A stretch of 64,000 nucleotides of DNA from Leucobacter chromiireducens (GTDB lineage: Bacteria > Actinomycetota > Actinomycetes > Actinomycetales > Microbacteriaceae), in NCBI RefSeq assembly GCF_003917135.1, contig NZ_RPDI01000004.1:1-64000 (forward strand), in the 5' to 3' direction. Both the position numbers and the translations under genes were made by a program. The notes under the pieces were generated by a model. It saw only the letters and a list, made by a program, of their open reading frames with translations. It had not been told where the DNA came from and did no database searches. Below are positions 17,245-47,808 of this stretch, one piece after another. The first letter of the stretch is position 1. Each line of letters starts with the position of its first letter.

Positions 17245-17592
17245 ATGTCGTCCACGGCAAGGACCACCCGACCGAACCTCGACACCCCGCAGTACCTCTC
17301 CCTCTACGAAGCGGAAGCGGCCGGCTACGGCGCGTACTCGACCCTCCGCAGCTGGATCGCCGCGGGCAGGCTCCCAGCCGTCCGCACCGGCCGGAGGATC
17401 AAGATCCGACTGGAGGACCTGGAAGCCTTCGCGAGCCCGGCAGTCGTCCACCACAGCGAGGCAAAGCCTGCACCCGAGACCGAGCTCAACTTCGCGATCG
17501 CACGCATCGTCGCGAACGCGCCGCGGCTGACCGAGCGCCAGCGCGAGCAGCTCGCCTCGATCCTCGGCGGGAACGAGGCAGCCCATGCCTGA
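17245..17592 (+). CDS. excisionase-like helix-turn-helix protein
   Basis: The 115-residue protein has a MerR/Xis-type helix-turn-helix (residues 17-62: YLSLYEAEAAGYGAYSTLRS, then AAGRLPAVRTGRRIKIRLED), in the style of excisionase-family DNA-binding proteins. It is the first gene inside the left end and overlaps the primase gene by eight bases. It may direct excision with the integrase 30 kb away, or regulate the replication genes beside it; the sequence cannot decide between these. Confidence 0.7.
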   Translation: MSSTARTTRPNLDTPQYLSLYEAEAAGYGAYSTLRSWIAAGRLPAVRTGRRIKIRLEDLEAFASPAVVHHSEAKPAPETELNFAIARIVANAPRLTERQREQLASILGGNEAAHA

Positions 17593-20044
17593 GACGACCC
17601 CGCAGCGTGCACCCGAGACGGGCGGTCCGCCCGAAAGAGAAAGCCGCCCCACGGCTAATGGGGCGGCAGAGTTCGGTGCTGAAGCTTTGAACTACTCCCA
17701 GCCTAACGCTAATGAGAACGATTCGCAACACGAGAAGCGAGCCTCATCAGGGACTGCCTTCGGTAAGAAGCCCGTCACCTCTCCGCAGAAGAAGCTGAGC
17801 TCCGCAGTGCCCGCCTTCGAGCGCAAGGTGCTCACGGACCAGCCCGTCACGCGCTACAGCGCCATGGCGACCGCAGCCGAGATCGAGGCGGATGTCGAGC
17901 AGCGCGCTGCCCAGACGTGGCAGCAGGGCGACTTCGGCTTCGCGAGCCCCGCTGATAGGGCGCAGGAGTTGAAGCGACTCAAGAAGAAGGCCGTCGACGC
18001 TCACAACACGGGCGCACCGCCGAGCCAGGGCAAGCTCGCCCTGCAGCCGCAGGGAGGCCCGGTGCCCGAGCTGCGCTACTTCGAGGTGACGCAGAAGATG
18101 CTCGACCAGGGCCGCTTCATCATGCAGCGAGGGTCGAAGGTCGTCCCTGGTGGCACCGAGTGGCCTGTCCTCCCAGGGAGCTGGTCGGCAGAGGTGCGCA
18201 TCGCGTGGGCGACCGCGAGCTTTCTGGCTGGATTCGTCCCCGAGGAGTACGAGAGCAAGGCGCTGGCCGGCGCGAAGCTGATCGAGCGCACCAAGGAAGC
18301 GCTCATGACGCGCATGTTCGTGCCGGACGACACGACGAAGAAGATGATCGTCGAATACGTCGATGGCGCACCGCCGAAGGGCCGTCTCGTGCCCGGCCAG
18401 ATCGTCGAGCTCATGTACAGGTTCGCGCGGATCAAGCGCATCGCGCTCGCTGGGCTGAGCGCGGACGAGGACGAGGACCTGCTCGCGGTGTACGTCGAGG
18501 AGGGCGCCGACGCAGGCATCTACGTCGAGGACATGTCGGCCTTGGCCAACCTCGCCCACGAGATCTCTCCTGACCTGAGCCAGCAGGGCATGAGCAAGCT
18601 GCTCGGTTCCGGGAAGTCGCGCGGCATCGTCTGGAATGCGGCAGGCGGCAAGCACCGCGTGGAGCGCACTCTGGACCGTGGCCGCTCGGTGGCGTGCGCG
18701 AACGGAGTCTTCGACACCGTGACGAAGACTCTGCGTGACTTCGACCCTGAGCGCGACGTGCTGATGTCGAAGCTCTCGACGAACTGCCCGCTGAGCAAGC
18801 CCGAGGAACCGGTTCGGATGCTGTCTGATGGCACCGTATGGACGTTCGACGAATGGCTGCTGGACGTCTTCCACCCTGAGCTGCCCGATGCGCAAGAGGT
18901 GGTGGCCTTCATCTGGCAGGTCATCGCCGCGGTGCTGCGTCCTGGGCTGCCGCTCGGTCGGGCCGTCTTCTTCTACTCGGAGAGCGGAAACAGCGGGAAA
19001 GGCACTCTTCTCGAGCTCATGATGAACCTCATCGGCGAGGGGTCGAACGGATACACGTCGATACCGTTGGACGAGTGGGGCGGCGATGGCAATGACTTCA
19101 AGCTCGAGCCGCTGCTGCGCGCGAACGCGGTGCTGGTCGACGAGAACGACGTCGGCGAGTACCTGCCGAAGCTCGGCCGCCTGAAGAACGCCATCACGGG
19201 CGATCGCCTCGCGATCAACAGGAAGCACAAGCCTGTCGTGACGGTTCGCTTCCAGGGGTCGATCGTGCAGTGCATGAACGGCATCGCGAAGACCAGGGAC
19301 AAGACCGATTCGCTCTATCGGCGATTCATCTGGTTGCTGTTCCCCAAGAACTTCGAGGGCAAGGAGTTCAAGGAGATCAAGCAGCTCTTTCTCAAAGATC
19401 CCGAGGTGCTGAGCTACGTCGTGTGGCACGCGCTGCACACGCCCTTCGGCGGAGCGCCCGACTCGCCCGAGTTCGACGTGCCGATGAGCTGTCGCACGCT
19501 CCTCGAGGAGGTCAAGGTCGACAATGACACGGTGCGGCAGTTCTGGGAGGAATACGCCGACAAGTTCGTGTGGGACGTGCTGCCGAACAGCTTCCTGTAC
19601 GGCGCTTTCAAGGGCAGTGAGTACTACGGCCAGACCAATCTCGGCTCCCGCGAGTTCTCGAAGAGGCTGAAGGGCATCGTCCAGGAAGAGGCGAAGCGCG
19701 GCGGCCACTGGGATGCGCCGAAGGACCCGGTTTGGGTCGGCAATCGCATGGACGATCCCGAGCCCTTGATCCGGACCCTCGACTTGACAGCGTGGATGAA
19801 CACCGGTGCCCGTGGGAGCAACGATTGGCGCAAGGTCTGCTCACCAGTGCCGCCGGCCACCGCGCGAGGCCTCGTGAGGATCGTGCCCCGCACTGCTTGT
19901 ACCGCCGGCACTCCTGGCGACGAGGAGGACGTGGCCCCGGTTCGCGAGGCGAGCGTCGACGACCTCGAAGCTCTGGCTGCCAGGGGCTTCAACATCGTCG
20001 ACTCGACGGACGACGCTGCGGACGCAGCAGCAGAGAGGAGCTGA
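17585..20044 (+). CDS. P4-type primase-helicase (D5/SF3 family)
   Basis: Proteins of this family unwind and prime at a plasmid or phage origin. The 819 residues have a polar N-terminus, a D5-like middle and an SF3 helicase core: Walker A ESGNSGKGTLLELM near residue 467, Walker B AVLVDENDVG near 515 and motif C-like GSIVQCMNG near 560. Residues about 645-680 (VRQFWEEYADKFVWDVLPNS then FLYGAFKG) are echoed in the gene at 20547. ATG 17585 overlaps the previous gene. The primase/helicase suggests that the excised element replicates. I do not see a clear N-terminal primase zinc finger. Confidence 0.85.
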   Translation: MPETTPQRAPETGGPPERESRPTANGAAEFGAEALNYSQPNANENDSQHEKRASSGTAFGKKPVTSPQKKLSSAVPAFERKVLTDQPVTRYSAMATAAEIEADVEQRAAQTWQQGDFGFASPADRAQELKRLKKKAVDAHNTGAPPSQGKLALQPQGGPVPELRYFEVTQKMLDQGRFIMQRGSKVVPGGTEWPVLPGSWSAEVRIAWATASFLAGFVPEEYESKALAGAKLIERTKEALMTRMFVPDDTTKKMIVEYVDGAPPKGRLVPGQIVELMYRFARIKRIALAGLSADEDEDLLAVYVEEGADAGIYVEDMSALANLAHEISPDLSQQGMSKLLGSGKSRGIVWNAAGGKHRVERTLDRGRSVACANGVFDTVTKTLRDFDPERDVLMSKLSTNCPLSKPEEPVRMLSDGTVWTFDEWLLDVFHPELPDAQEVVAFIWQVIAAVLRPGLPLGRAVFFYSESGNSGKGTLLELMMNLIGEGSNGYTSIPLDEWGGDGNDFKLEPLLRANAVLVDENDVGEYLPKLGRLKNAITGDRLAINRKHKPVVTVRFQGSIVQCMNGIAKTRDKTDSLYRRFIWLLFPKNFEGKEFKEIKQLFLKDPEVLSYVVWHALHTPFGGAPDSPEFDVPMSCRTLLEEVKVDNDTVRQFWEEYADKFVWDVLPNSFLYGAFKGSEYYGQTNLGSREFSKRLKGIVQEEAKRGGHWDAPKDPVWVGNRMDDPEPLIRTLDLTAWMNTGARGSNDWRKVCSPVPPATARGLVRIVPRTACTAGTPGDEEDVAPVREASVDDLEALAARGFNIVDSTDDAADAAAERS

Positions 20045-20046
20045 CC

Positions 20047-20550
20047 ATGGCGAAGAACGTGAGCACCCGTGTGGCTAACGCGAGGGCTGCAGCGGAGAAG
20101 GCGAAGCGCGAGCTCGCAGCGATCGAGCGCGAAGAGCGCGAAGCCCTGCTGGCCGAGAAGCGTGCTGCCAAGGCCCTGCAGGCCCGCAGCGGACTGGCGG
20201 AGGAGGTCTACGCGATCCTCGGCATCGAGCCCGAGCCGCCCCGCGCGCAGACCCGCGTGGTCAAGAAGGACGGCGCGGGCATCGAGCAGACCGTGCAGGT
20301 CGACCGAGATCCTCGCGAGAAGCTGCGCGCCGAGTGGGCGCTGGAGGCGCTGCACCTGATGAGCGAGCAGATCGGCGAGAAGGGCATGGAGTTCGTCCAC
20401 GCGACGATCGAGCGCAGGCGCCGGAGCGCCCGCGACGCCGACGACGCGGCCCGTGCAGCGAAGGCTCGGGCTGCTGCGCCTGTCGCAGCACCGGCACACG
20501 ACGGCGTGCCCGATCCCCATGACGATGCGCGATGGAGCGCCGAGTCATGA
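20047..20550 (+). CDS. unknown protein, coiled-coil N-terminus
   Basis: I do not recognise this 167-residue protein. Its first 55 residues are Ala/Glu/Lys/Arg-rich and should form a coiled coil (ARAAAEKAKRELAAIEREER); a middle part contains AEEVYAILGIEPEP and an Arg-rich helix near residue 125. The ATG at 20047 lies two bases after the primase stop with GAGGAG upstream, and its stop overlaps the next start (ATGA), so it belongs to the replication operon. Confidence 0.7.
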   Translation: MAKNVSTRVANARAAAEKAKRELAAIEREEREALLAEKRAAKALQARSGLAEEVYAILGIEPEPPRAQTRVVKKDGAGIEQTVQVDRDPREKLRAEWALEALHLMSEQIGEKGMEFVHATIERRRRSARDADDAARAAKARAAAPVAAPAHDGVPDPHDDARWSAES

Positions 20551-21245
20551 ACGAGATTTCCCGAGGAGACGCGTCGCGGCTCCACGAGCAGGCGCCCGAG
20601 AGGGCGAAGGACACGGCGGCCGATGGGCCGCACTACATGAAGGAGGTGCCAGAGATGGGCATCGAAGGGCAGAAGAGAACCGCTCTCGAGATGGTTCGCA
20701 TGATCGTTAGCGACATCGAGAACGGTGTTGATGCTATCGAGTCCAAGCGGCAGCTCTTGGCGTCAGTGCGCGACCGGCACGGCATGGCGCACAGTGCTGT
20801 GCGCCGCTTTTGGCTGGCTACCCGAGAGCGCTACGCCTGGGACCTCCTGCCGCCGGCGTTCATGTACTCGCTCTTCAGGAAGTGGGGCGAGGTGGAAGCT
20901 GCGCATCCCAATGAGTTGCGTCTGCAGTCGGCGGATGAGTGGGAGCGCGCACAGATTCGGCGTGGCGTGCTTACGCGGGACGGCTATCGCTATCGCTTTG
21001 CGCTCGAGCTCGCAGATCTCATCCGTGAGCTCGATGATGGGGTCTGGGACGTCGACTCGCTCTGGCTCGGTGAGCGCGTAGGCGATCGCATGTCCGTGCA
21101 TGAGCAGAGTGCTGAACATGCCGGCCACTTCTGGACGAAGCCCATCGACCCGGCCAAGCGCGACAAGGGCGCTGTGTTCCGTGTTGGTAGTACCGGTGAG
21201 GGCGCCGCTGCTCCTGTCGAGAATGGGCTCGTACCGAGCGAGTAG
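20547..21245 (+). CDS. stand-alone protein resembling the primase C-terminal domain
   Basis: The 232-residue protein contains VRRFWLATRERYAWDLLPPA followed by FMYSLFRKW, which lines up with VRQFWEEYADKFVWDVLPNS and FLYGAFKG of the primase-helicase two genes upstream. No Walker motifs are present, so it has only the part that follows the helicase core. In P4-like proteins that part recognises the origin. ATG 20547 overlaps the stop of the previous gene; ATG 20532 is an alternative. The homology is my reading of a short aligned block and needs a profile search. Confidence 0.7.
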   Translation: MNEISRGDASRLHEQAPERAKDTAADGPHYMKEVPEMGIEGQKRTALEMVRMIVSDIENGVDAIESKRQLLASVRDRHGMAHSAVRRFWLATRERYAWDLLPPAFMYSLFRKWGEVEAAHPNELRLQSADEWERAQIRRGVLTRDGYRYRFALELADLIRELDDGVWDVDSLWLGERVGDRMSVHEQSAEHAGHFWTKPIDPAKRDKGAVFRVGSTGEGAAAPVENGLVPSE

Positions 21246-21633: not shown

Positions 21634-22168
21634 GAAATCGCTTCAAAAAGCGTGCCGGAGAAATGCCAGACTCTGCCACGATTCGACCATCGCCTGCGGA
21701 TGCTGTGTCACTTTCTTGGCAAAGTCTGGCATTTTCGTGGCTTCGGACTCTCATTCGGCGGGTGCTCGAGAGGGCCTGGCCGCGAAGGCGTGCCACGATC
21801 CTGCCAAGGTCTGCCAGAGAAATGCCATGATGCGGCAGAGTGCTGCCAAACCCTTTTCGGGCCATGCCGCAGAAGTGCCAGACTCTGCCTCAGAAATGCC
21901 ACGATCTGCCAGAGAACTGCCAAACCCTTCTCGGGCTGCGGGCCGAGGTGCGACGAAAATGCCATAATCTGCCACGATTCGACCACGAAGTGGCAGAGAA
22001 GTGCCAGACCTTCTTCAGACTGCGCCACGATTCTGACGACGATTGCCACGATCCTGCCAAAGCCTGCCGAGGAAATGCCACGATCTGCCAGAGAGCTGCC
22101 AAACTCCGCGGCACCGGGCACCCTCTCGGCGGCCTCCGCGGTGCCGGTCGCGGCGCCTCCAAAGGCCT
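21634..22168. repeat. phased TGCCA array (block A), candidate origin or centromere
   Basis: About 19 copies of TGCCA on the + strand and three TGGCA copies lie at 10- or 11-base steps, for example at 22044, 22055, (22065), 22076, 22086 and 22097, or 21876, (21886), 21897, 21907 and 21918. This is close to one word per helical turn. Runs of words are separated by short CCC-TTTTC-GGG type hairpins. Long reading frames here are an effect of the repeats and look nothing like proteins. It follows the primase operon and precedes the transfer genes. Confidence 0.8.
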
Positions 22169-22690
22169 GAGATCGCCTCGGAATGCGGGACAGAGAACGG
22201 ACAAGAATCGCCACGATTCGGACATCGCCTTCGAGTAGCCTGTCCGTTTTCTGGCCATATCTGTCCGTTCTCTGTCCTCGGACCCTCATTCGGCGGCTGA
22301 TCGAGAGGGTCTGGCCGCCGAGTGCGGACAGAGAACGCCCAGAGAACGCCACGATTCGGACAGGAAGCGGACACAGAACGGACAGGCCCTTTTCGGGTCG
22401 GGACAAGAACCGGACAGAGATGGCCACGATTCGGACAGAGAACGCCCACGAAGCGGACACGCTCATTTCGGCCGGGACAAGAATCGGACAGAAAAGGCCA
22501 CAAATCGCCCACAAACCGGACAGATAACGGACAGGCCTTTTCCTGGCTGCGCCATGATTCGGACAGCAGCGGCCACAGAACGGGCAGAGAGCGGACAAGA
22601 ATCGCCACAGAACGGACAGGAAGCGGACAGGCTCCGCGGCACCGCGCACCCTCTCCGCGGTTTCCGCGATGCCGGTCGCGGCGCCTCCAT
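22169..22690. repeat. phased GGACA array (block B), collinear with block A
   Basis: This block aligns with block A at an offset of 535-537 bases (for example CATTCGGCGG at 21752 and 22287). At matching places the word is mostly GGACA (about 18 forward, three TGTCC inverted), with GGCCA, GCCCA or CGCCA between. The inverted cluster 22241, 22252, 22262, 22273 falls exactly on 21706, 21717, 21727, 21738. Block ends share a 55-60-base GC-rich tail (22085-22160 and 22630-22690). Confidence 0.8.
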
Positions 22691-22696
22691 CGGGCT

Positions 22697-22805
22697 GCGC
22701 TGCCGCTCCTGCCCGTCGACCGGAGCACCGAGCACCTCCCTCCGCTGCCGCTGCGGTCGCTGCTCGGCCGGGTGCAGCAGTCGCCTGCGCTGCCGCTCCG
22801 GCTCC
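22697..22805. repeat. 108-bp direct repeat, right copy
   Basis: This is the second copy of 21498-21605, in the same orientation, directly after the GGACA array. Together the copies bracket both arrays. Confidence 0.75.
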
Positions 22806-23291: not shown

Positions 23292-23425
23292 TTGCGATGG
23301 ACTACCGAAAGCGGAGCTTTTGTGTAGTACATCGTAAAGTACTTGCCTCATTAGGGCCCTACCTCTAAAATGGGTACTGACGGGGTCTCCAGAGGCTCCA
23401 AATCGCGATGTTCCGCGGTTTGGAG
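23292..23425 (+). other. candidate oriT
   Basis: Two inverted repeats lie just upstream of mobC. The first pairs TTGCGATGGACTAC (23292-23305) with 23324-23337 at 12 of 14 positions and holds a smaller AAAGC/GCTTT hairpin in its loop. The second pairs CTCCAAATCGCG (23396-23407) with CGCGGTTTGGAG (23414-23425), one mismatch, six-base loop. Palindrome TAGGGCCCTA lies between. Position and structure fit a relaxase target; the nick site cannot be named from sequence alone. Confidence 0.5.
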
Positions 23426-23478: not shown

Positions 23479-24141
23479 GTGGACGCGATCGGATCGGACG
23501 AGGCGCAGCCGAGTGCGTCCGAGCACGGGCACGGCACCGGAGCCCCTGGGCGTGCGGAGCGTGAGGAGCTTGCCGCGAAGCGGAAGCGGATCACGCGCAG
23601 CCGCCCGAAGCGCTTCGGCACGAAGCGTAATGTCCGCTTCTCGGCTTCCGAGGAAGCGGCGGTGGAGGCAGCGCGATCGGAGATCGCGAGGGCGAAGGGC
23701 GTCGACGCGTCGAAGGTCAGTTTCAGCGAGGGGCTCCGTCTCCTGCTGAAGCTGGACGAAGGCGAGGCGGCGAGCACCGTGAACATCGCGCTCGGCGTGC
23801 ACCGTCGGACAGCCAGCGACGAGCGGATGACCGACGAGGCGCGCGATGCGTTCCTCGCGATGAATGACGAGCTCACGGTGTGCCGCAGGCAGCTCGTCGG
23901 GATGGGCGCGAACCTCAATCAGATCGCGAAGGCGCTGAACAGGATCGCAGTGCAGGGAGGCAGTCTCGACGCGGAGGCCCAGGCGGCTGTCTCGCTCCTG
24001 CCGGAGGCGCTCGTGCAGGTCGCGGCGATGCAGGACAACCTGGAGGCGATCGAGACCAAGGCGTTCCTCGCGATCTACGGCGGCGAGGACGGCATGGACC
24101 AGGCTGCGGCAGGCGCTGCCGACGGGAGGAGCGCATCGTGA
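23479..24141 (+). CDS. mobC: MobC-like relaxosome protein
   Basis: MobC proteins bind oriT and help the relaxase open the strands. This 220-residue protein has a basic N-terminal third (KRKRITRSRPKRFGTKRN, ribbon-helix-helix-like VRFSASEEAAVEAARSE) and the family signature RRQLVGMGANLNQIAKALN near residue 140. GTG 23479 has a strong GGAGGAG site. The relaxase follows after 179 bases. Confidence 0.85.
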   Translation: MDAIGSDEAQPSASEHGHGTGAPGRAEREELAAKRKRITRSRPKRFGTKRNVRFSASEEAAVEAARSEIARAKGVDASKVSFSEGLRLLLKLDEGEAASTVNIALGVHRRTASDERMTDEARDAFLAMNDELTVCRRQLVGMGANLNQIAKALNRIAVQGGSLDAEAQAAVSLLPEALVQVAAMQDNLEAIETKAFLAIYGGEDGMDQAAAGAADGRSAS

Positions 24142-24320: not shown

Positions 24321-26225
24321 GTGGTCAACATCAGGTGGTCCCCGACGTACTTCTCGCGTGCCCTGAACACGTACCTGCTGAACCTCAAGGAGGGCCAGCA
24401 GGACGGCGACAGGTACGTCGTCGCCGAGGGCGTGAACGGCATCATGCCGCGGTTCGTCGAGCAGCAGTTCCGCGACGTCCGCAAGAAGTGGGGCAAGAAC
24501 CGCACGGTCAGGCGCCTCTGGAAGAGGACCGGCACCGAGACGTGGCAGGGTGAGTATGTCCACGCCTACCACGGCATCATCTCGTTCGGCCAGGACGAGC
24601 TCGATCCGGACGACCCTGAGGCGTGGGACACCGCGCTGAGGATCGCCCGCGCAACCGTCGAGGAAGTCTTCCCGACGCGGCAGGCGATGCTCGTGCTGCA
24701 GAACGACGGCGCCGGGGGCTGCTTGCACGTCCACCTCGCGGTGAACAGCGTGGACGAGAAGACGGGGCGCTCCATCGACTCAGGGCTGACGACGCACTCG
24801 TACCGCAAGAAGCTCGCCGACGGCTCCTACGAGCTCGCAGGCATGGCGCTGCGGTTCAACGAGATCCTCGAGCGAGAGGGCTTCCAGCAGCGGGCTGATC
24901 TCGTCGAGATGATGGCCGATGCGCAGGAGCGGGTCAGGGCAGGCGGCAGCGCGAAGCTGCGGGCCAAGGACCGCCGCGAGGTCAGCGAGCAGCGAGCCGC
25001 CGAGAAGCACGAGGACTGGCTCATCGACCGCGAGCAGGCCGAGGCGCAGGGCATCGCATTCAGCCAGCCCGAGCCGTTCAGCGTCGCGGTGCTGAAGCAG
25101 CGCGTGCGGAAGTCGATGAACGACCCCCGCAGCATCGACTTCGACACGTTCGTCGAGGTCGCCCGGGATCACCGCGTCGACGTGGAGCTCAGGCCAGGCA
25201 CACGAGGGCTCGCGTACGTGATGCTCGACGAGGCCGGCCAGCCCGTCGCAGAGGGCACGAGGGCGCGCCGCCGCGCCTCGACGCTCGGCTCCGACTACAT
25301 GCTCGACGCGGTCGAGGCTCACTGCGCCGAGAACGATGCGCTGAGTGCGCAGGCCCAGGCGCAGCAGGACGCAGTGGAGGCGGATCGCGCCGCGCGCGAC
25401 AAGGCGATGCGCGAGGGGTGGGCGGCAGAGGCCAGAGCGCTGCGGGCGGAGCGTGACGAGCGCGCCGCTGAGCGCGAGGCACGGGCGGCGGCGGCTGCCG
25501 AGGCGGAGCAGCAGGCCCGCGAGGAGGTCGAGCGCAAGGCGCAGCGCCTCGTAGACGAGGAAGCGAATGCGCAGGCTGAGGCTCTCGTGGATGCCGAGCG
25601 CAAAAACCGCTCCGAGCAGGCGTCTGCCGCTGCCGCTCCAGACGCCGGTGCCGCTGACGGCACTGCCGCGAGCCATGCGCCCTCCGCTGCCGCTCCGGCC
25701 GCCTCGGCACAGCAGACAGCCCGATCGAGGCTGCGCGACGCCGTCTCGAAGAGCGAGCAGAGGCAGGCGGTCATCACGGCGTTCGCGGCGTTCGAGGAGC
25801 GTGCGCTAGAGGCTCTGCGCGAGGGCCGGCGCATCGACGACGGCGATGTCCCGAAGGGCATCGGCGCGGGCTTCCTCAAGGCATTCGGCGAGCAGATGTT
25901 CCCCGAGATTCGCGCGCAGATGGAGCTCCGCGAGGCGAAGAAGCAGCTCGGCAGGAGTGCGTTCGAGGACGCGAAGGCGCTGCACGAGCGGCTCCAGGGC
26001 GTGCTCGGCCCCGGCGAGCGCGAGGACCTCGAGAGTCGGAACAGGGGGCTGCGGAAGACTGCAGCGCGGCTCCGGGCGGAGATCGCGGCGGGCGTCTACG
26101 AGGACACCACGCAGGAGGTCGACTCCCAGGACGAGGATCTGCTCGATGCCAGTGCGCGGCTCGAGATGGAGAGGACCGAGGCGGCTGAGAAGGTTGAGGA
26201 GGGCGGATCGCTGGTCGAGGACTGA
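24321..26225 (+). CDS. relaxase / mobilization nuclease
   Basis: The relaxase nicks oriT and leads the strand during conjugation. The 634-residue protein carries the histidine motif CLHVHLAVN (residues about 134-142) that binds the metal, and tyrosines at residues 10 and 19 that could be the nicking residue. From about residue 350 it is a long Ala/Glu/Arg-rich coiled coil, with an Ala-rich linker near 440-470. GTG 24321 follows a GGAGG-type site. The MOB family cannot be fixed by eye; P-type is my guess. A terminator follows at 26266. Confidence 0.88.
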   Translation: MVNIRWSPTYFSRALNTYLLNLKEGQQDGDRYVVAEGVNGIMPRFVEQQFRDVRKKWGKNRTVRRLWKRTGTETWQGEYVHAYHGIISFGQDELDPDDPEAWDTALRIARATVEEVFPTRQAMLVLQNDGAGGCLHVHLAVNSVDEKTGRSIDSGLTTHSYRKKLADGSYELAGMALRFNEILEREGFQQRADLVEMMADAQERVRAGGSAKLRAKDRREVSEQRAAEKHEDWLIDREQAEAQGIAFSQPEPFSVAVLKQRVRKSMNDPRSIDFDTFVEVARDHRVDVELRPGTRGLAYVMLDEAGQPVAEGTRARRRASTLGSDYMLDAVEAHCAENDALSAQAQAQQDAVEADRAARDKAMREGWAAEARALRAERDERAAEREARAAAAAEAEQQAREEVERKAQRLVDEEANAQAEALVDAERKNRSEQASAAAAPDAGAADGTAASHAPSAAAPAASAQQTARSRLRDAVSKSEQRQAVITAFAAFEERALEALREGRRIDDGDVPKGIGAGFLKAFGEQMFPEIRAQMELREAKKQLGRSAFEDAKALHERLQGVLGPGEREDLESRNRGLRKTAARLRAEIAAGVYEDTTQEVDSQDEDLLDASARLEMERTEAAEKVEEGGSLVED

Positions 26226-30776: not shown

Positions 30777-30992
30777 TCACTCCTTGGTATGGAGCCCGAT
30801 CTCGAGACCGAGGGCATCCACGACCTTGGCAAGAGTACCTGTCTTGACCTGGGTGCCCTGCTCGATGCGGATGATGCTCAGCCGTGATGTCTCGGCAGAC
30901 GCGGCCAGCTCCAGCTGAGTCAGGCCGCGTTCTTCTCTCGCAACGCGGACAGCCTCGCCGATCACCACGAGGTTGTGGAGATCCTCAGCCAT
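30777..30992 (-). CDS. HipB-like helix-turn-helix protein, restriction operon controller
   Basis: The 71-residue protein is a single XRE domain (GEAVRVAREERGLTQLELAA, then SAETSRLSIIRIEQGTQ). Its start overlaps the end of hsdR by eight bases, so it is made last from the hsdM-hsdS-hsdR message. Controller proteins of restriction systems look like this. The palindrome upstream of hsdM (37272-37293) is a likely target. No HipA kinase gene is present, which argues against a toxin-antitoxin pair. Confidence 0.75.
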   Translation of the reverse strand: MAEDLHNLVVIGEAVRVAREERGLTQLELAASAETSRLSIIRIEQGTQVKTGTLAKVVDALGLEIGLHTKE

Positions 30993-33900
30993 CAGAACGC
31001 TCCTCAGGCTCGGACCTCGAGTCAGCGTCCTGCGCTGCGTGATGCTGCGCGTGCAGCGAATCCGCGCTGATCTCGGCGAGCTTCTTGAGGACTTCAGGGT
31101 CGGAGATGTGCTGGCGGATCTCCTCGACCTCTTGGAAGGCCTGGAACATCGCGATTCCCACTGCAGAGTTGAAGGCCTCGGAAGTCTTCAGCTGCTCCGG
31201 CGAGTTGTGCTTGGCCATGGCCACGGCCTCGGCGTTCGAATCGAGGAAGCCCCAGTAGGTCGTGATGAAGCCCGCGATGCTTCCCCTGTCCAGGTCGGCG
31301 CCCTTCGCGCTGAACATCTCGTTCACGCGGTCGATGGCTTCTTCCAGGGGCCCGCGAGCTGCCGGAGCGGAGCCCTTGTGCTCGCCGTCGAACGTCGGGA
31401 GCTCGATCGCCTCATCGCTGCCCTCGCTGAGCGAATGATCCTCATTGATCGACGAAGGGACGAGCTGCACGCCGACGAGCTCGACGCTCTCGAGGTAGCT
31501 GTCGTCGTACTTCGCCGCGTCAAGGTGCAGGTTCCGAGAGAGCAGCGTCGCGAGGATGGCCCGGCGGTGCAGGTCGGGGTCCTGGTAGTCGACGATCTGG
31601 CTGAGGAACTGCCAGGCGTTCCGGTAGTTGATGACGTCCGAGCGGAACGCCTCGAGCTCTTCGCGGCGCGCCTTGTCCTTGTTCAGCGCGGCTTGGCGCA
31701 GGAAGCCTGCCCAGCGGTTCTTGATCGGGCCGAGCGCACGGGCGATGGCCTCGCCGCCCTTCTCGTTGATGTAGGCGTCCGCGACGTCGTTCATCTGGTC
31801 CTGGGTGTAGATGTCGGCGTTGTCGAGCCGTTCAGCGAGCGTGTAGAGCGCGTTGGGGTCGACCTCGCCGCTGACGTGCGCGTCCGAGTAGTACATCTTG
31901 AAGTCTTCTTCGATGCGCTCGGGAGCATTCTGGAAGTCGACGACCATCGGCGCCGTCTTGCCGGGATAGTTGCGGTTCAGCCGCGAGAGGGTCTGGACCG
32001 TGGCGATGCCCGATAGCACCTTGTCGACGTACATCGCCATCAGGCGGGGCTCGTCGAAGCCGGTCTGGAACTTGTTCGCGACGATGAGCACCTTGTACTC
32101 GTCCTCTTCGCGGAACGCATTCGCCGTGTCACCACGGCCGTTCAGGCTCGCTTCCGTGACGGTGCTGCCGTCCTCGGCGGTGAGAGAGCCGGAGAAGGCG
32201 ACGAGCGTTCCGAGGCCCTCGTACCCCTGTTCCTCGATGTAGGCGTTCATCTTCTGCGACCAGAGGTATGCTTCCTGCCGACCGCTGGTGACCACCATCG
32301 CGCGCGCCGAGCCGTTCAGCAGGCTCGCGACGTTGCGGCGGAAGTGCTCCACGACGACGCGGACCTTCTGGGCGATCGAGGTCGGGTGCAGGCGGGTGTA
32401 CTTGACGATGCCCGCCACTGCGCGGCCCGTCTCGACGAGGGTCTCTTCCTCTTCGCCGGTGAGCCTGTCCCTGACGTGCACGAACATGTCGTAGGTCGAG
32501 TAGTTCTCGAGCACATCGAGGATGAATCCCTCTTCGATGGCCTGGGCCATGGTGTACGTGTCGAAGGCTCGCCAGGTGCCGTCCGGCTGCTCAGTGCCGA
32601 ACAGGCGCAGGGTCTTGGCCTTCGGGGTAGCGGTGAGCGCGATGAAGGTGATGTTGCTCGCCTGCGCGATCGCCGAGTCCTTCGCCGCGAGCAGCTCGTC
32701 GGCAGTGATCTCTCCGCTGCCGTCGTCGGCATCGTCGACTTCGACGTCGGCGAGCAGCTCCTTGAGCTGGCGTGCAGTGGAGCCCGTCTGCGACGAGTGC
32801 GCCTCATCGGCGACCACGGCCCAGTTGCGTCCGCGCAGCTCGTCGGTGTCCTCGATGAGCTTCATCACCTCGGGGAAGGTCTGCAGGGTGCAGGTGACGA
32901 TGTGATCGCCCTCGAGCAGCGCCTTCTTGAGCTGCGGCGACTTCGCACCGGACTTCTCTCCCACGGAGACGACGAGGCCCGCGCTCGACTGCACGAGGTT
33001 CATGTCATCGCGGATGTTCTCGTCGAGCACGGTCCGGTCCGTGACCACGATGACAGAGTCGAACGTGGACTGCGACTTCGTGTCCATGTGGCGGATGAGG
33101 CGGTGACTGAGCCACGCGATCGTCTTGGTCTTCCCGGAGCCTGCCGAGTGCCAGATGAGGTAGCGCCCACCCGGGCCCTTCGCTTCGACGTCCTGGATGA
33201 CCCGCTCGACTGCACGGAGCTGGTGGAAGCGGGGGAAGATCAGGCGGCCATCGCCCTTCTTTCCCGTCTTCTTCGCCGGCTCGAACAGTGCGAAGTCCTT
33301 GAGGATCCGCATGAACGTCGGGCGCGCGAGGATCTCGCGCCACAGGTAGTCGGTGCTCGAACCGGTGTCCGAGGGAGGGTTGCCCTCGTGCCCGTCGTCG
33401 CCCTGGTTGAAGGGCAGGAACACGGTGTCCTCGCCTTCGAGCTTCGACGCCATGTAGACGAGGTCGTTCGACACGGCGAAGTGCACGAGCGCACGGCCAG
33501 GAGCGAGCAGCGGACGGGTCCTGCCCGGTACGCGGTCGTTCCGGTACTGGCGGATGGCGTGCTGTACCGTCTGCGTGTTGTCGGTCTTGAGCTCCATCGT
33601 GACCACCGGGATGCCGTTGGCCGTGAGGACGACGTCGATGCTCTCGTTCGTAGCAGTGTCGAACCGCACCTGTCGCAGCACGCGGAGCCTGACGGCGTCG
33701 GCCTGCTCGATGACCTCGGTGAGATTGGGGTTCGCCGGCGGGAAGGCCATGAGCGGCCCGAACTTCGCGGCGGGACGTCCGACCTGCGCATAGGTGAAGC
33801 CGCTGCGCAGCACGCCGAGCAGCCCGCCGATCGGGTGACCGGTGGACTTGTTCATCGTGGTGGACTTCGAGAGCTCCTTCACGATGTGGTCGAGGAGCTT

Positions 33901-34134
33901 CTTCTCGGCGGTGGTGCGCTGCCCGTTCACCAGGTCCGCAGGAACCGCCTTCTCGTACTCGTCAGGGTACTGCGTCCGGAGCCAGTGCAGCACGTCCTTC
34001 GGCACCATCGCGAGTGCAGCGTCCCAGCCCGCGGCGGCGGTGCTGCCCTCGTCCTCGTAGGTCCAGCCGCGGTTTGAGAGCTCCTCGCAGAGGTTGTCCT
34101 CGAACTCGCGTTCCATGAGCTGTGCGTGACTCAT
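30985..34134 (-). CDS. hsdR: type I restriction enzyme R subunit
   Basis: HsdR translocates DNA and cuts it far from the recognition site. The 1049-residue protein has the N-terminal nuclease motif (SIDVVLTANG then VVTMELKTDNTQ, near residues 165-185), Walker A HSAGSGKTKT near 330, the DEAH box VVADEAHSSQ near 440, FIALTATPK and the motif VI-like QTLSRLNRNYPGK. Its ATG overlaps the hsdS stop (ATGA). All key motifs are present and the frame is intact, so the enzyme should be active. Confidence 0.95.
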   Translation of the reverse strand: MSHAQLMEREFEDNLCEELSNRGWTYEDEGSTAAAGWDAALAMVPKDVLHWLRTQYPDEYEKAVPADLVNGQRTTAEKKLLDHIVKELSKSTTMNKSTGHPIGGLLGVLRSGFTYAQVGRPAAKFGPLMAFPPANPNLTEVIEQADAVRLRVLRQVRFDTATNESIDVVLTANGIPVVTMELKTDNTQTVQHAIRQYRNDRVPGRTRPLLAPGRALVHFAVSNDLVYMASKLEGEDTVFLPFNQGDDGHEGNPPSDTGSSTDYLWREILARPTFMRILKDFALFEPAKKTGKKGDGRLIFPRFHQLRAVERVIQDVEAKGPGGRYLIWHSAGSGKTKTIAWLSHRLIRHMDTKSQSTFDSVIVVTDRTVLDENIRDDMNLVQSSAGLVVSVGEKSGAKSPQLKKALLEGDHIVTCTLQTFPEVMKLIEDTDELRGRNWAVVADEAHSSQTGSTARQLKELLADVEVDDADDGSGEITADELLAAKDSAIAQASNITFIALTATPKAKTLRLFGTEQPDGTWRAFDTYTMAQAIEEGFILDVLENYSTYDMFVHVRDRLTGEEEETLVETGRAVAGIVKYTRLHPTSIAQKVRVVVEHFRRNVASLLNGSARAMVVTSGRQEAYLWSQKMNAYIEEQGYEGLGTLVAFSGSLTAEDGSTVTEASLNGRGDTANAFREEDEYKVLIVANKFQTGFDEPRLMAMYVDKVLSGIATVQTLSRLNRNYPGKTAPMVVDFQNAPERIEEDFKMYYSDAHVSGEVDPNALYTLAERLDNADIYTQDQMNDVADAYINEKGGEAIARALGPIKNRWAGFLRQAALNKDKARREELEAFRSDVINYRNAWQFLSQIVDYQDPDLHRRAILATLLSRNLHLDAAKYDDSYLESVELVGVQLVPSSINEDHSLSEGSDEAIELPTFDGEHKGSAPAARGPLEEAIDRVNEMFSAKGADLDRGSIAGFITTYWGFLDSNAEAVAMAKHNSPEQLKTSEAFNSAVGIAMFQAFQEVEEIRQHISDPEVLKKLAEISADSLHAQHHAAQDADSRSEPEERSDG

Positions 34135-35285
34135 CAGGCCACTTCCTTCCGTCCGGTCACCACGTCGGTGATGAGCGCGGCGCGGCGCTCGATGAGCAGG
34201 GATTTCAGCTCAGCGACCTTCGCTAGCATGGCGTCGAATTCGGAGCGGCTAGCATCGAGCACCGCAATGATCTTCCGCTGCTCGTTAAGCTCCGGTAGAG
34301 GAACTTTGACAGCCGCGAACCTATCCCAGGGGATGCTCTTACGATGCTCCAAAATTCCATTACCGAGATCTTGGATTCGCTGTCGCAACTCAGTGTTTGC
34401 AAAGAGATGTTTTAGGAAATTGGGTTCAATGACCGATTTGCGGGGGGTGCAGATTAGATAAACCGAACTGCAAACACCGTCAAGAGGGCTGATCCCATAT
34501 GAACCAATATAGAAATTCATACTATTAAGGACGTAGTCCCCGGTTCGAACCCTGATGCACCGAGTTAGATCAGTGGGTTTCTTATTACCGACATCCCCTT
34601 TGTCCTCATACCGAATGACACCCACGCCTTTCATTAGTGAAAGGTACTGAGCAGATTCGTCATGATTCTTCTCTTTCCGCTGCTGAACAAGCGCGTTCAT
34701 CGGTAAGACTCGTTTGTACCCGAGCGCAAGAACGCTTTCGAGCGCCGTTGGATCACCAGGTACTCCGAAGGGCAGGAGATAGGCTGCAGATTTCGCCTCC
34801 CATCGAGCTTCAAGTGTCTCAGCTAGCTCGTCCAACTTGGCGACCATCTCATCGATCTCGCCCGTCTCGCGATCGAGGTAGTCGGCGATTGCGCGTTGAC
34901 TTTCCAAGCTCAGAACCGGTGCTTTAATACGACCTAGAACCGAACTCGTCATGCTTGGAAGAGCAGTCGCGGTTGAATAAACTCCAAACGGGATTGTGGT
35001 GGCCCAATAATGAAGCCATCGACCATCTACTTGGTCGCCCAATTCCGTGTAGAACATAGTGTCAACAGTCCAGAGTTTACCGTTGACATAAAGGGGTCGG
35101 TCGATCGTCCCTTTTCTGCCAAAGAGCACCGACTCGCCCTCATAGAGGGAGGCTGAAGCCCAGCCAAATTGACCCCCGGAGCCGTAAACTGGCACATCAC
35201 CAGTTTCGTCTTCGACTTGTTTGTAGTCTTGGCCGTTTCGAAATTGAACAAGGTATTGAAGGCCAACCTCGCTCACCTTAGTCAT
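34134..35285 (-). CDS. hsdS: type I restriction specificity subunit
   Basis: HsdS chooses the DNA sequence recognised by the complex. Two target-recognition domains are each followed by a conserved helix (SLESQRAIADYLDRETGEID, and LNEQRKIIAVLDASRSEFD). The 383-residue product begins at ATG 35285, overlapping the end of hsdM. The DNA here is visibly poorer in G and C than hsdM and hsdR, usual for these exchangeable domains. The target sequence cannot be predicted. Confidence 0.92.
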   Translation of the reverse strand: MTKVSEVGLQYLVQFRNGQDYKQVEDETGDVPVYGSGGQFGWASASLYEGESVLFGRKGTIDRPLYVNGKLWTVDTMFYTELGDQVDGRWLHYWATTIPFGVYSTATALPSMTSSVLGRIKAPVLSLESQRAIADYLDRETGEIDEMVAKLDELAETLEARWEAKSAAYLLPFGVPGDPTALESVLALGYKRVLPMNALVQQRKEKNHDESAQYLSLMKGVGVIRYEDKGDVGNKKPTDLTRCIRVRTGDYVLNSMNFYIGSYGISPLDGVCSSVYLICTPRKSVIEPNFLKHLFANTELRQRIQDLGNGILEHRKSIPWDRFAAVKVPLPELNEQRKIIAVLDASRSEFDAMLAKVAELKSLLIERRAALITDVVTGRKEVA

Positions 35286-37236
35286 CGGCTTTCACCGCCT
35301 GGAACATTGCGCCGAGGTCACCCATGATGCGCTGGACATCGGCGTCGATCTCGGCGAGAGGGCGAGGCTCTTCGGGAACGTAGAAGATCCGTGTGAATGG
35401 GATCTCATTGCCAGCTTTCGCCTTCGCCTCGTCCCACTGCGCCTCGGGAGTAAACGGCAGCACCTCGCGCTGCATGTGCTCGGCGAGGCTTTCACTCATC
35501 GGCACTCGCTCAGTGATCTTCCAGTCGTTGTCCACGACGGCATTGCCTTTACGATCGAAAGCGAGTGGCGCCGAGTCGTCGAGCATTGCAGTCGCACCCA
35601 TAACAGCGTCGACGAGCCCTGTCGGCGCCTTCAGTCCAGCAGCCTTCGCAGCAGCTGGCAGTGCCTTCGGGATCTCGTTCCAGGGCGTTCCGTCCAAAGC
35701 TCGCACGATCTCTGCGTGGTCGTCGGTGAAGTCGCGGCGTTCGCTGAGAGCTGCGATCGCTTCATCAGTGCAGCGGGTTGCGAGACGCACCTGCTTGACT
35801 ACGGGGACGTCGCGGAACATGAAGTCCTGCGGTGTGAGTACCTGTGAAATCGAAGAGGGAGGGGTCTTCTCATCGCCTTCGAATAGACGGTAAGCCTCGA
35901 GCACGGGTTTGCGGTCGAGCTCTGTCATCTCGCGCCGCTTGTCACCGAGGGGCTTGCGCATCGGGGTCCAGCAACCGCTGGCATCGATGAGCTGGATCTT
36001 GCCCTTGCGCTCAGCGTCCTTGTTCGTGTCAAGGATCCAGACGTAGGTCGCGATGCTGGTGCCGTAGAACATCTGCGTCGGCAGCGCGATGATCGCGTCG
36101 ATGAGGTCCTCATCGAAGAGCCACTGACGGATTGCATTCGGGCCCTTGTCGCTGTTGAACAGAGGCGAGGCGTTCGAGACGACCGCGGCACGTCCGCCGT
36201 GACCGTTCTTGCCGGCGGGGCTGAGCTTCGAGGCGCAGTGCGCGAGGAACAGCATCTGCCCGTCGGACTTGCTTGGCAGACCATGGCTAAAGCGAGTACC
36301 GGGCTCCTGAGCCTGTTCGATGATTAGCTTTTGATCCTCTGACCAATCCATTCCAAACGGAGGGTTGGATAGCACGTAGTCGAAGTACTGGCCTTCGTAC
36401 TCGTCGTGGAGGAGGGTGTTGCCTTTGCGGATCGCATCGGGGCGCCCGCCCTGGATCAACAGGTCGGCCTTGCCGAGCGCGTAGGCCGAAGGCATGAGCT
36501 CCTGGCCGAACAGCGTGACCTTGATATCGGGGTTCATGTCACGCAGAGCCTGCTGCGCGACGAGCAGCATACCGCCGGAGCCAGCGGTCGGATCGTAGAT
36601 CGAGCGGAGCGCGCTGCTGCCCGCGAGCGAGTCCTCATCGGCGGCGAAGAGCACGTCGACCATGAGCTTGATCGCATCACGCGGGGTGTAGAAGGCGCCC
36701 GCCGCCTTGCCCTTCTTGTCGAAGGCGCGGTACATGACGTCCTCGAAGATCTCGCCCATCGCGGTGTTGCTGATCTGGTTCGATCCGAGGGGCAGGGTGG
36801 AGAAGTGCCGCACGACCGCGTGCAGGCGGTTGGCCTCGGCGAGGGTCTTCACGAGCCGGGGCATGTCGAACGAGGTCCAGATATCGGCGATGTTGTGTGA
36901 GAAGCCGGAGAGGTAGCTCTCGACAGACTTGTCGACGTTGTCGTCGACCGAGGCTATGGCCTTCAGGTCGAGCGGCGACACGTTGTAGAAGGTCAGGCCA
37001 AACTTCTGCTTCACAGCTATGTCGATGAGGTGCGGCGGCATCTCGCCGAGCGATTCGACGTAGGCGGCGACCTCGGCCTTCGTGTCGGCGAGCAGGCACT
37101 CGAGGCGACGGAGGACCGTGAATGGAAGGATGTAGTCGCCGTACTCCTGCGGCTCGACGACATTGCGCAAGAACTTGTCTGCGGTATCCCATACGATCCG
37201 TGAAGTGACCGATGATGCGGTCGATGCCTCTGCCAC
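35278..37236 (-). CDS. hsdM: type I restriction modification methyltransferase subunit
   Basis: HsdM methylates adenine N6 at the target. The 652-residue protein has the SAM motif DPTAGSGGMLL (near residue 215) and the catalytic NPPF in LSNPPFGMDW (near 290), after the N-terminal helical domain (ADKFLRNVVEPQEYGDYILP). I start at GTG 37236, which has AAGGAGAG upstream; the longer frame lacks family similarity. It is the first gene of hsdM-hsdS-hsdR-controller, with the operator palindrome about 35 bases upstream. Confidence 0.94.
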   Translation of the reverse strand: MAEASTASSVTSRIVWDTADKFLRNVVEPQEYGDYILPFTVLRRLECLLADTKAEVAAYVESLGEMPPHLIDIAVKQKFGLTFYNVSPLDLKAIASVDDNVDKSVESYLSGFSHNIADIWTSFDMPRLVKTLAEANRLHAVVRHFSTLPLGSNQISNTAMGEIFEDVMYRAFDKKGKAAGAFYTPRDAIKLMVDVLFAADEDSLAGSSALRSIYDPTAGSGGMLLVAQQALRDMNPDIKVTLFGQELMPSAYALGKADLLIQGGRPDAIRKGNTLLHDEYEGQYFDYVLSNPPFGMDWSEDQKLIIEQAQEPGTRFSHGLPSKSDGQMLFLAHCASKLSPAGKNGHGGRAAVVSNASPLFNSDKGPNAIRQWLFDEDLIDAIIALPTQMFYGTSIATYVWILDTNKDAERKGKIQLIDASGCWTPMRKPLGDKRREMTELDRKPVLEAYRLFEGDEKTPPSSISQVLTPQDFMFRDVPVVKQVRLATRCTDEAIAALSERRDFTDDHAEIVRALDGTPWNEIPKALPAAAKAAGLKAPTGLVDAVMGATAMLDDSAPLAFDRKGNAVVDNDWKITERVPMSESLAEHMQREVLPFTPEAQWDEAKAKAGNEIPFTRIFYVPEEPRPLAEIDADVQRIMGDLGAMFQAVKADD

Positions 37237-37271
37237 GTGCTCTCCTTGGGTTCGTGATTTCACCTCTAATG

Positions 37272-37293
37272 AATGTATCAGAACTGATACATT
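37272..37293 (-). promoter_or_regulatory. palindromic operator upstream of hsdM
   Basis: AATGTATCA-GAAC-TGATACATT is a perfect inverted repeat with nine-base arms. It lies between hsdM and the divergent gene at 37423 and is AT-rich against its surroundings. Binding by the HipB-like protein encoded at the end of the operon is inferred. Confidence 0.65.
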
Positions 37294-37422
37294 TTGTCCA
37301 GCTGGAAGGCTCTCGTTCGTCAGTAATCGCTGCACTCCAAAGCGTGTTTGCCCTGGTGAGGCCACTGGGCTCTGGCAGTATTGGAAAGCAAAGCCCGCTC
37401 ACTCAGTCAGAAAGGCGGAGCG

Positions 37423-45404: not shown

Positions 45405-45953
45405 TCAGTACGCAAAAATGAAGACGCCGCCATCAGGCGCGTCTTCTATTGCGTAAGAATGGGCTTCGTCGGCTGCGAAGCGGTCCCAATCGAAGTAGGA
45501 CTGTAGCACATCCGGGATGCCCTCGAACATGGCCGTGTCGTCCGCGAGCTGCTCGAGGTAGTCGCGGAAGCTCTCGTAGTGGCCGCAGTAGCGCTCCTCG
45601 AAGTCGCTCACGACGGGCAGGTCGCTGCTTCCTTGGGCAGAGTAAGAGCCTGAGCGCACCCACGCGAACAGGGCAGGGCGGAGGTGCTCGTCCGCCTCTT
45701 CGATCGTCTCCGCCCAGCGAGCAGCGTCGTGAGGGCTCATCTCGCCGCGGACGGGGATGTTTTCGTGATCCATCACCCAGAGCTCCTCGCAGCCTTCGCG
45801 GACGCGCGAGCGGCCGCCGTGGACCTCGGCGAGGCCGATCCCGTCGGCACCCGCGGCGTCGAACCACTCGCCGACGAGGCGGCCGCAGTTGTAGCAGTGC
45901 AGGCAGCCGATCCAGACGCGCGGCGTCAGGTCCTCCATAGCAGCAGCAGTCAT
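45405..45953 (-). CDS. ardA: ArdA antirestriction protein
   Basis: ArdA mimics DNA and blocks type I restriction enzymes when a mobile element enters a new host. The 182-residue protein has the family start TPRVWIGCLHCYNCGRLVGE then WFDA, the WVMDHENIPVRGEMSP segment and a very acidic C-terminal part (FEERYCGHYESFRDYLEQLA, then LQSYFDWDRFAADEAHSYAI). It lies 11 kb from a type I restriction operon on the same element. The inner cysteine pair (LHCYNCGRL) is unusual for the family as I know it. Confidence 0.85.
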   Translation of the reverse strand: MTAAAMEDLTPRVWIGCLHCYNCGRLVGEWFDAAGADGIGLAEVHGGRSRVREGCEELWVMDHENIPVRGEMSPHDAARWAETIEEADEHLRPALFAWVRSGSYSAQGSSDLPVVSDFEERYCGHYESFRDYLEQLADDTAMFEGIPDVLQSYFDWDRFAADEAHSYAIEDAPDGGVFIFAY

Positions 45954-47217: not shown

Positions 47218-47808
47218 TCGAATAAGCGTCGCGGTGCCGGGTGCGCTGCGGCCCGCGCTTCCGGGCCCGCCTTCGGGCTCCGCCCTCGCCGCGCCTTCCG
47301 CCCGGCAGCGCTCCGGCCTGCGGCCTGCGCCTGGGGCTCCGCTCGGACATCGGCCTGCGGCCGAGTCCGGCTCGCATCAGGGCAGGCTAGGAGGGAGGCG
47401 TGCTGGGTGGGAGCGTTACGCCCATTACGTTCCTTACGTTTCGCTGATTCTTGCGTAATGGAAGAAACCCCAGGTCAGAGCTCTGAACATTACAACATTA
47501 CGGCATTACAGTTTTTCCAAAAGATTAGAAGAAGAAGAGAGTAGGGGTACTTCATCTCGTATATAGATAAAAGGTGGAACGAACTGTAATGGTAATGCGT
47601 TCACTGGAATCGTCGCGTGACCAGGGATTTATAGCATTACGGTAAAAGCCGCCGTTTTGTAAGGCGTTCCGTAATGGCCCGCTCCAGGTCGTCACGTCAC
47701 CTGGTGCGCACCCATTCGGCCCTGCCCTGTTGCGAGCGCGGACGCGGCGCAGCCGCGGGCCGCGCGCACCGGAGCGCAGCCCGGAGGGCGGAGCCTGAGC
47801 TGCGCGCG
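47218..47808. other. non-coding region before the integrase stop
   Basis: The first 200 bases are GC-rich with short inverted repeats (for example GGCCTGCGGCC near 47313). The next 260 bases are AT-rich and hold the ATTAC words listed separately. I see no gene. Confidence 0.6.
47415..47676. repeat. cluster of CATTAC(G/A) words
   Basis: CATTACG, CATTACA or their reverse CGTAATG, TGTAATG occur at 47423, 47454, 47488, 47496, 47504, 47585, 47635 and 47670, with related GTTACG at 47415 and CTTACG at 47433. Three copies from 47488 are spaced by exactly eight bases. The AT-rich island is otherwise foreign to this GC-rich element. It is likely a protein-binding cluster. Confidence 0.7.

Follow-up and report, generated by a model that had tools for sequence, protein, structure and literature searches.

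Phased arrays of short repeats on which protein filaments assemble are already known. The StbA/stbDR system of plasmid R388 has two sets of five 9-bp direct repeats at 11-bp spacing that adjoin oriT, and it is required for stability and affects transfer (PMC3098194). In ParR/parC systems a ribbon-helix-helix (RHH) protein occupies direct repeats spaced 11 bp in R1 and 10 bp in pB171, and the repeat families, which differ between plasmids, those of C. perfringens included, set incompatibility (PMC9426499). The integrative mobilisable element SGI1 carries two parS-like sites for a partition protein (PMC10954446). In the open-licence literature, which was not queried for this exact combination by name, we found no description of paired arrays of different words on one scaffold. 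Such a pair is present in the window analysed here, a stretch of 64,000 nucleotides from Leucobacter chromiireducens.

The preliminary description of this DNA reported about 19 forward and three inverted copies of TGCCA in block A (21634-22168), and about 18 forward and three inverted copies of GGACA in block B (22169-22690), recurring every 10-11 bases. Our counts agree for block A and raise the forward number by one for block B: TGCCA has 19 forward copies in A and none in B, GGACA 19 in B and none in A, and each block has three inverted words (TGGCA in A, TGTCC in B). The helical phasing was likewise borne out, with the forward words following a period of 10.55 bp in A and 10.65 bp in B, each at a vector strength of 0.98. 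Neither the 19 words nor their phasing was matched by any of 1000 dinucleotide shuffles of each block (shuffle maxima 8 and 9), and the phasing of 19 words was reached by none of 20,000 random placements. Throughout the window, all same-strand pairs of TGCCA or GGACA spaced 10 or 11 bp fall inside the block of that word. When the block DNA was compared with 54 genomes of the genus, the matches listed comprised the genome itself and one of the 53 others, G785, at 88% identity; the remaining matches listed were short, and those in other genomes had E values of 3.8e-5 or weaker. The parts of the two blocks are as follows.

21664-22101, forward strand: phased array of block A, TGCCA, 19 forward words, period 10.55 bp (counts, shuffles, G785 alignment)
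21717-21731, reverse strand: inverted words of A, TGGCA at 21717 and 21727 (word counts, alignment)
21743-21784, no strand: word-free scaffold of A, ends approximate, 88% identical to that of B (alignment)
22104-22169, no strand: tail of A, ends approximate, 85-88% identical to that of B (four-way alignment)
22188-22629, forward strand: phased array of block B, GGACA, 19 forward words, period 10.65 bp (counts, shuffles, G785 alignment)
22241-22277, reverse strand: inverted words of B, TGTCC at 22241, 22262 and 22273 (word counts, alignment)
22278-22319, no strand: word-free scaffold of B, ends approximate (alignment)
22632-22697, no strand: tail of B, ends approximate (alignment)

Both blocks follow one plan, in which a short cluster of forward and inverted words is followed by a 42-bp word-free scaffold, a long direct run and a GC-rich tail. 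Identity between A and B is 85-88% in scaffold and tail (88% in the scaffold) and 51% in the spacers. The long direct runs are also where higher-order repeats sit, a 61-nt stretch present four times in A at spacings of 74, 84 and 95 bp and a 75-nt stretch present three times in B at spacings of 75 and 74 bp, and the words of one block are therefore not all independent. The slot pairs earlier given as examples (21664/22199, 21791/22326 and 21823/22358) are exact. The offset of 535-537 then proposed for the whole alignment describes only its first half: at the 19 TGCCA slots it is 535-536 until 21918/22454 and 526-528 afterwards, because a 10-bp stretch is missing from B. The proposed word-by-word exchange stands insofar as each block is clean for its own word, but it does not extend to every slot. 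A four-way alignment of A and B from the window and G785 gives 34 slot rows (one slot is split into two rows, and the TGGCA of A at 21991 is also counted in two), of which 11 carry the words of both blocks in both genomes, 9 only that of A and 7 only that of B, while 7 are mixed between the genomes. Similarly, the inverted clusters, said to coincide, do occupy corresponding positions at four slots; 21727/22262 is, however, the single slot at which A and B both have an exact inverted word, and the third TGGCA of A (21991) lies outside the cluster. Slots reading CGCCA, GGCCA or GCCCA are scattered among the GGACA words of B. As a description by eye, TGCCA, GGACA, the GGTCA of a related element (see below) and variants are each a single change away from GGCCA.

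It had been argued that neutral drift would blur the words, and the comparison with G785 agrees that they were not so blurred, since both words change less than their spacers. Between the window and G785, 0 of 110 word bases and 34 of 327 spacer bases of A are changed (Fisher p=4.7e-5), and for B the figures are 0 of 105 and 43 of 316 (Fisher p=2.9e-6), all from the four-way alignment of this single genome pair; one B word is unaligned, within a 21-bp stretch missing in G785. With words defined from both genomes, the changed bases number 3/125 in words and 32/323 in spacers for A (p=0.006) and 5/120 and 38/301 for B (p=0.008). At six slots where only A has its word, B has CGCCA, GGCCA or TGGCC, identical in both genomes; these 30 bases are unchanged, as against 43 of 316 changed spacer bases (p=0.036, with the slots picked post hoc). 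Across the array body, 126 sites split A from B in each of the two genomes, one splits the genomes in each of the two blocks, two are crossed and 69 show other patterns. The A/B duplication is thus older than the split of the window from G785, and A and B look like old paralogues, each keeping its own word. The 66-bp tails have no block-specific, three genome-specific and 18 other sites, and these three sites suggest that the tails may have been homogenised within each genome. Multi-base gaps inside aligned arrays measure 10 and 21 bp between the window and G785, and 11, 11 and 11 bp in the TCGGT arrays of relatives described below, lengths of whole helix turns or repeat units, although single-base gaps also occur and the aligner may prefer gaps one repeat unit long.

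The arrays lie in an element whose genes run, from left to right, from an HTH_17/excisionase-family gene through a P4-family primase-helicase, a small charged protein and a 237-aa protein to the arrays, and on through MobC, a relaxase, accessory genes, type I restriction (by eye), a DprA-like gene, ArdA and IS1595 genes to a compact site of CATTAC words and a serine-recombinase-type integrase. To the left of the element is a type II secretion F-domain gene, and G785 is flanked on the same side by tad-type genes (by eye). The arrays are about 0.8 kb upstream of mobC; the oriT in this region is a candidate site.

17245-17592, forward strand: HTH_17/excisionase-family protein (Pfam HTH_17, TIGR01764; 97% identical in G785)
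17585-20044, forward strand: P4-family primase-helicase (TIGR01613, E=9.8e-35; body differs in G785)
20047-20550, forward strand: small charged protein, start inferred, possible accessory (71% identical in G785)
20532-21245, forward strand: 237-aa protein, part of which aligns with the C-terminal Pox_D5-type domain of the primases
23316-23347, forward strand: candidate oriT core upstream of mobC, proposed from by-eye likeness to the DNA ahead of mobC in G522, G787 and G103; almost unchanged in G785
23479-24141, forward strand: MobC auxiliary mobilisation protein (Pfam MobC, E=1.9e-7; 91% identical in G785)
24321-26225, forward strand: relaxase, MobA/VirD2-like (Pfam Relaxase, E=1.6e-12; 78% identical in G785)
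47423-47676, no strand: probable replication origin, nine CATTAC words in pairs that flank an 82-bp gap of 64% A+T (word layout)
47809-49326, reverse strand: serine-recombinase-type integrase (NCBIfam CcrB and others, all scoring below the family cut-offs; 99.6% identical in G785)

An ArdA-type antirestriction gene (45405-45953) coexists in the element with what appears by eye to be its own type I restriction system (30985-37365). Where the window has the 237-aa gene, G785 has an Mrr-type restriction endonuclease gene and a 437-aa gene (L058, 11124-13426).

Many relatives have a compact site in which words, paired or tripled at 6-9 bp, border one or both sides of a gap. The gap measures about 60-95 bp (166 bp in G612), more words often lie about 43 bp off, and 14 different words are used across the 15 elements compared. 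The A+T content of the gap varies from 34 to 66%, and A+T-richness is not common to all. These sites are probable primase origins with one layout and differing words, and word and primase have seemingly been exchanged together, in the window relative to G785 and in G323 and G775 relative to G790. The version in the window is the CATTAC site, probably the replication origin of the element. Its counterpart in G785 has GTGGCA words, with flanking DNA about 84% identical on both sides, and the primases of the two are 42% identical overall and about 30% in the body. Both primase body and origin site thus differ in G785, where the words of A and B are kept. The suggestion that A and B are a duplicated origin, with P4 replication as its parallel, does not survive this comparison, the CATTAC site being separate from the arrays; and the primase-helicase (17585-20044), named earlier as a possible reader, becomes a poor candidate for the same reason. 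The 237-aa protein, named alongside it, fares no better. A search of about 60 kb of G785, including the interval from primase to arrays, for a homologue gave only a 32-aa primase stretch and one chance-level match, and as both arrays are kept there the protein is rejected as a necessary reader and is a poor candidate. As a separate observation, the G785 origin word GTGGCA (L355, 8857-9452) includes TGGCA, the inverse of the block A word, and the G806 origin word GGGACA includes the block B word GGACA; with 14 origin words compared, these likenesses may be chance.

Related elements carrying arrays of other words, which the preliminary description had proposed to look for, do exist. We scored phasing at 23 loci gathered by relaxase or MobC likeness, the window among them, against a background of 8,023 windows (99.9th percentile 2.21; maximum 3.44, from a near-exact duplication in L101). 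Six loci score above every background window, namely G790 (9.9), G775 (7.6), G323 (7.4), G785 (5.6), the window (5.0) and G103 (4.3), and in each the best-scoring window is the non-coding flank of mobC-mobA. The loci are partly non-independent, since the window and G785 and likewise G323, G790 and G775 are sister sets; the six strongest arrays found thus represent three lineages, all beside mobC-mobA. The array is upstream of mobC in the window and G785, and behind the relaxase gene in the other four. Those of G323, G790 and G775 consist of TCGGT (28, 19 and 20 words, on both strands), most gaps being multiples of 11 bp, with some slips, and start 5-16 bp behind the relaxase gene, and that of G103 consists of GGTCA, GGCCA and variants, mostly at 11-bp spacing, from 18 bp behind it. 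Sixteen of the 23 mob-type loci score at most 1.71, among them G303, which has a weaker array behind its relaxase gene (autocorrelation and eye), and G129 and G787, both of which have MobC and relaxase; the MobC of G129 shares 72-73% identity with the G103 and G303 proteins. G522 (score 2.82) is not counted as a further phased array, since its signal can be traced to a 94-bp unit that is repeated five times in tandem ahead of mobC and contains two GGTCTC at a distance of 11 bp.

Relatives of the primase were found in 11 of 398 genomes of the family and 12 of 396 of the order (own included), of the relaxase in 11 of 54 genus genomes and of MobC in 7 of 398 family genomes; the MobC of G103 has relatives in 5 of 398 and 4 of 238 genomes, and that of G323 in 6 of 54. 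A search of genome contigs gave no relative of the 237-aa protein or the primase, a search of viral contigs no locus for the primase or the G323 relaxase, and a search of plasmids no 237-aa protein. Plasmids did match the primase (15 records) and the relaxases (6, 623 and 2 records), all below 60% identity, and the best of 37 plasmid records matching A/B DNA spans just 5% of the query. Among the matches listed for at least 240 viral-contig loci with GGACA or TGCCA triplets, none is to a MobC or relaxase query, while a primase match (29%) lies in L204 and an integrase match (28%) in L352. In the stretch 4353-6272 of L204 the primase relative is accompanied, about 1 kb away, by three TGTCC at 11-bp spacing (6246, 6257, 6268), perhaps an origin of the same kind as the compact sites. 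The prophage-like viral contig L214 (3177-3470) has 11 GGACA at a spacing of about 10.75 bp behind an integrase-like gene, a run apparently unrelated to A/B.

Comparison of the TCGGT arrays bears on which protein reads them. Among G323, G790 and G775, MobC is 79-100% and the relaxase 78-84% identical. The HTH_17 protein is 91% identical between G323 and G790, and that of G775 is 28-30% identical to either. G323 and G775, whose origins both use ATAGAC, have primases that are 88% identical, and the primase of G790, which has a GGTGACA origin, is 40-41% identical to these. The array therefore goes with mobC-mobA, and the primase with the origin word. This co-inheritance is suggestive of MobC as a candidate reader, but as arrays and mob genes are physically linked, their staying together is weak evidence. 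MobC is probably an RHH protein. The G323 MobC has an RHH_1 match above the cut-off (E=3.6e-5), and the RHH_1 region aligns when the two MobC groups are compared by profile (hhalign probability 52%, E=1.4e-4). Pfam gave no RHH match for the window MobC, neither of two MobC profiles found a solved RHH relative, and a single-sequence structure model was poor (pLDDT 63.8). By eye, the window MobC has an N-l-N-Q-i-a motif, a motif known from the RHH MobC proteins of MobP relaxases, and the target reported there for RA3 MobC is one imperfect palindrome (PMC4175270), unlike the asymmetric array words. A Pfam scan of 19 of the 36 listed element frames brought up no ParA, ParB, ParM, ParR or StbA family.

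Our preferred reading, to which we give a probability of roughly 0.42, is that A and B act as docking strips on which proteins assemble into cooperative filaments that would serve mobilisation, maintenance of the excised circle, or both, with MobC the leading candidate reader and the HTH_17 protein a candidate on geometry. The element would accordingly be an integrative mobilisable one, with the arrays in its mobilisation/maintenance region and not at its origin. Each helix turn would seat roughly one protomer or dimer, which would read an asymmetric five-base word, and filaments would nucleate on words that all face one side of the helix. The two arrays may bind separate proteins or separate forms of a single protein, which would amount to two reading specificities, and MobC may read at least one array. 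The complex could position or segregate the excised circle, feed a relaxosome near oriT, or do both, in the manner of StbA/stbDR beside the oriT of R388. The short inverted cluster and the long direct run would allow filaments to start in opposite directions, and turnover of words among elements could act as an incompatibility switch. This reading draws on the phasing, on words that change less than spacers, on words that are kept where primase and origin differ, and on the position of the six strongest arrays beside mobC-mobA.

Of the alternatives, the one that holds up best, though we consider it unlikely, is an excisionase/BldC-type filament, in which monomers of the HTH_17 protein (17245-17592) would line up head to tail along one or both arrays, with a single monomer in each turn, and excision would thereby be tied to transfer control, as with RdfS. 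The protein does belong to the excisionase family and is nearly unchanged in G785, and directional monomers fit asymmetric words better than symmetric dimers do. Of the known examples, BldC protects four 5-bp tracts spaced one helical turn (PMC5859096), RDF sites consist of direct repeats spaced by about a turn (PMC7498355), and RdfS forms filaments and controls both excision and transfer of an ICE (PMC11963761). The divergence of the G775 HTH_17 protein from those of G323 and G790, in spite of a TCGGT array of the same kind, speaks against it, as does the position of the gene beside the primase, about 4 kb away from the arrays.

We regard replication control as improbable. A and B would be origin or crr-like copy-control arrays read by the primase-helicase or by the 237-aa protein, which has a stretch in common with the primase C-terminal domain and is encoded directly upstream of the arrays; the array words contained in the origin words of G785 and G806 also favour this. 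However, the origin candidate of the window has CATTAC instead, the array words are kept in G785 together with a different primase body and origin site and, in the stretches searched, no comparable 237-aa protein, the TCGGT arrays do not track the primase, and the pair-gap-pair layout of the origin sites is absent from A and B.

Slightly less credible is that the arrays act as addresses which partition or relaxosome proteins from helper plasmids or ICEs recognise, one word per helper, in which case two arrays would mean that the element rides two helpers, and word turnover would track helper turnover. This would be centromere mimicry like that of SGI1, but in the form of two long arrays of words that share a scaffold. 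Least probable is a functionless satellite grown by duplicating a unit of about seven turns, its phasing a by-product of unit length, which the higher-order repeats (74-95 bp apart in A, 74-75 bp in B) would fit but which is disfavoured by words that change less than spacers in G785 and by the recurrence of arrays of other words next to mob genes.

Two homologous arrays that share a scaffold, neither containing the word of the other and both retained in a second genome, form a natural test of how the words recognised by proteins can change with geometry retained. The module exchanges seen here, of primase with origin, of HTH_17 alone and of array with mobC-mobA, let comparison narrow the reader of each site. 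If MobC or the HTH_17 protein is the reader, mobilisation would be tied to maintenance or to excision in this group of elements.

Like P4-type elements with their ori and crr, this element has a P4-family primase-helicase and a word-based origin, which lies elsewhere in the element; unlike those sites, A and B are without the origin word and are unchanged where primase and origin differ. The layout of ParMRC systems, taken alone, is reproduced by a word every 10.55-10.65 bp, but no ParR or ParM family was found with Pfam in the neighbours (20532-21245, 23479-24141 and 24321-26225), and the arrays are much longer than the ParR/parC repeats described (PMC9426499). The SGI1 sites, as reported, mimic a known helper centromere (PMC10954446), whereas plasmid matches to A/B cover very little of the query. 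RDF and BldC filaments (Apl, RdfS, BldC) use one short tract per turn, direct and directional, as A and B do, although about two to seven repeats are described for such sites (PMC7498355, PMC11963761, PMC5859096) and A and B have far more. The arrays resemble StbA/stbDR in their short direct repeats about one turn apart, and would do so in location if the oriT candidate is genuine, but in place of the one 9-bp sequence reported for R388 (PMC3098194) each array has about 20 five-base words, and the pair uses two different words.
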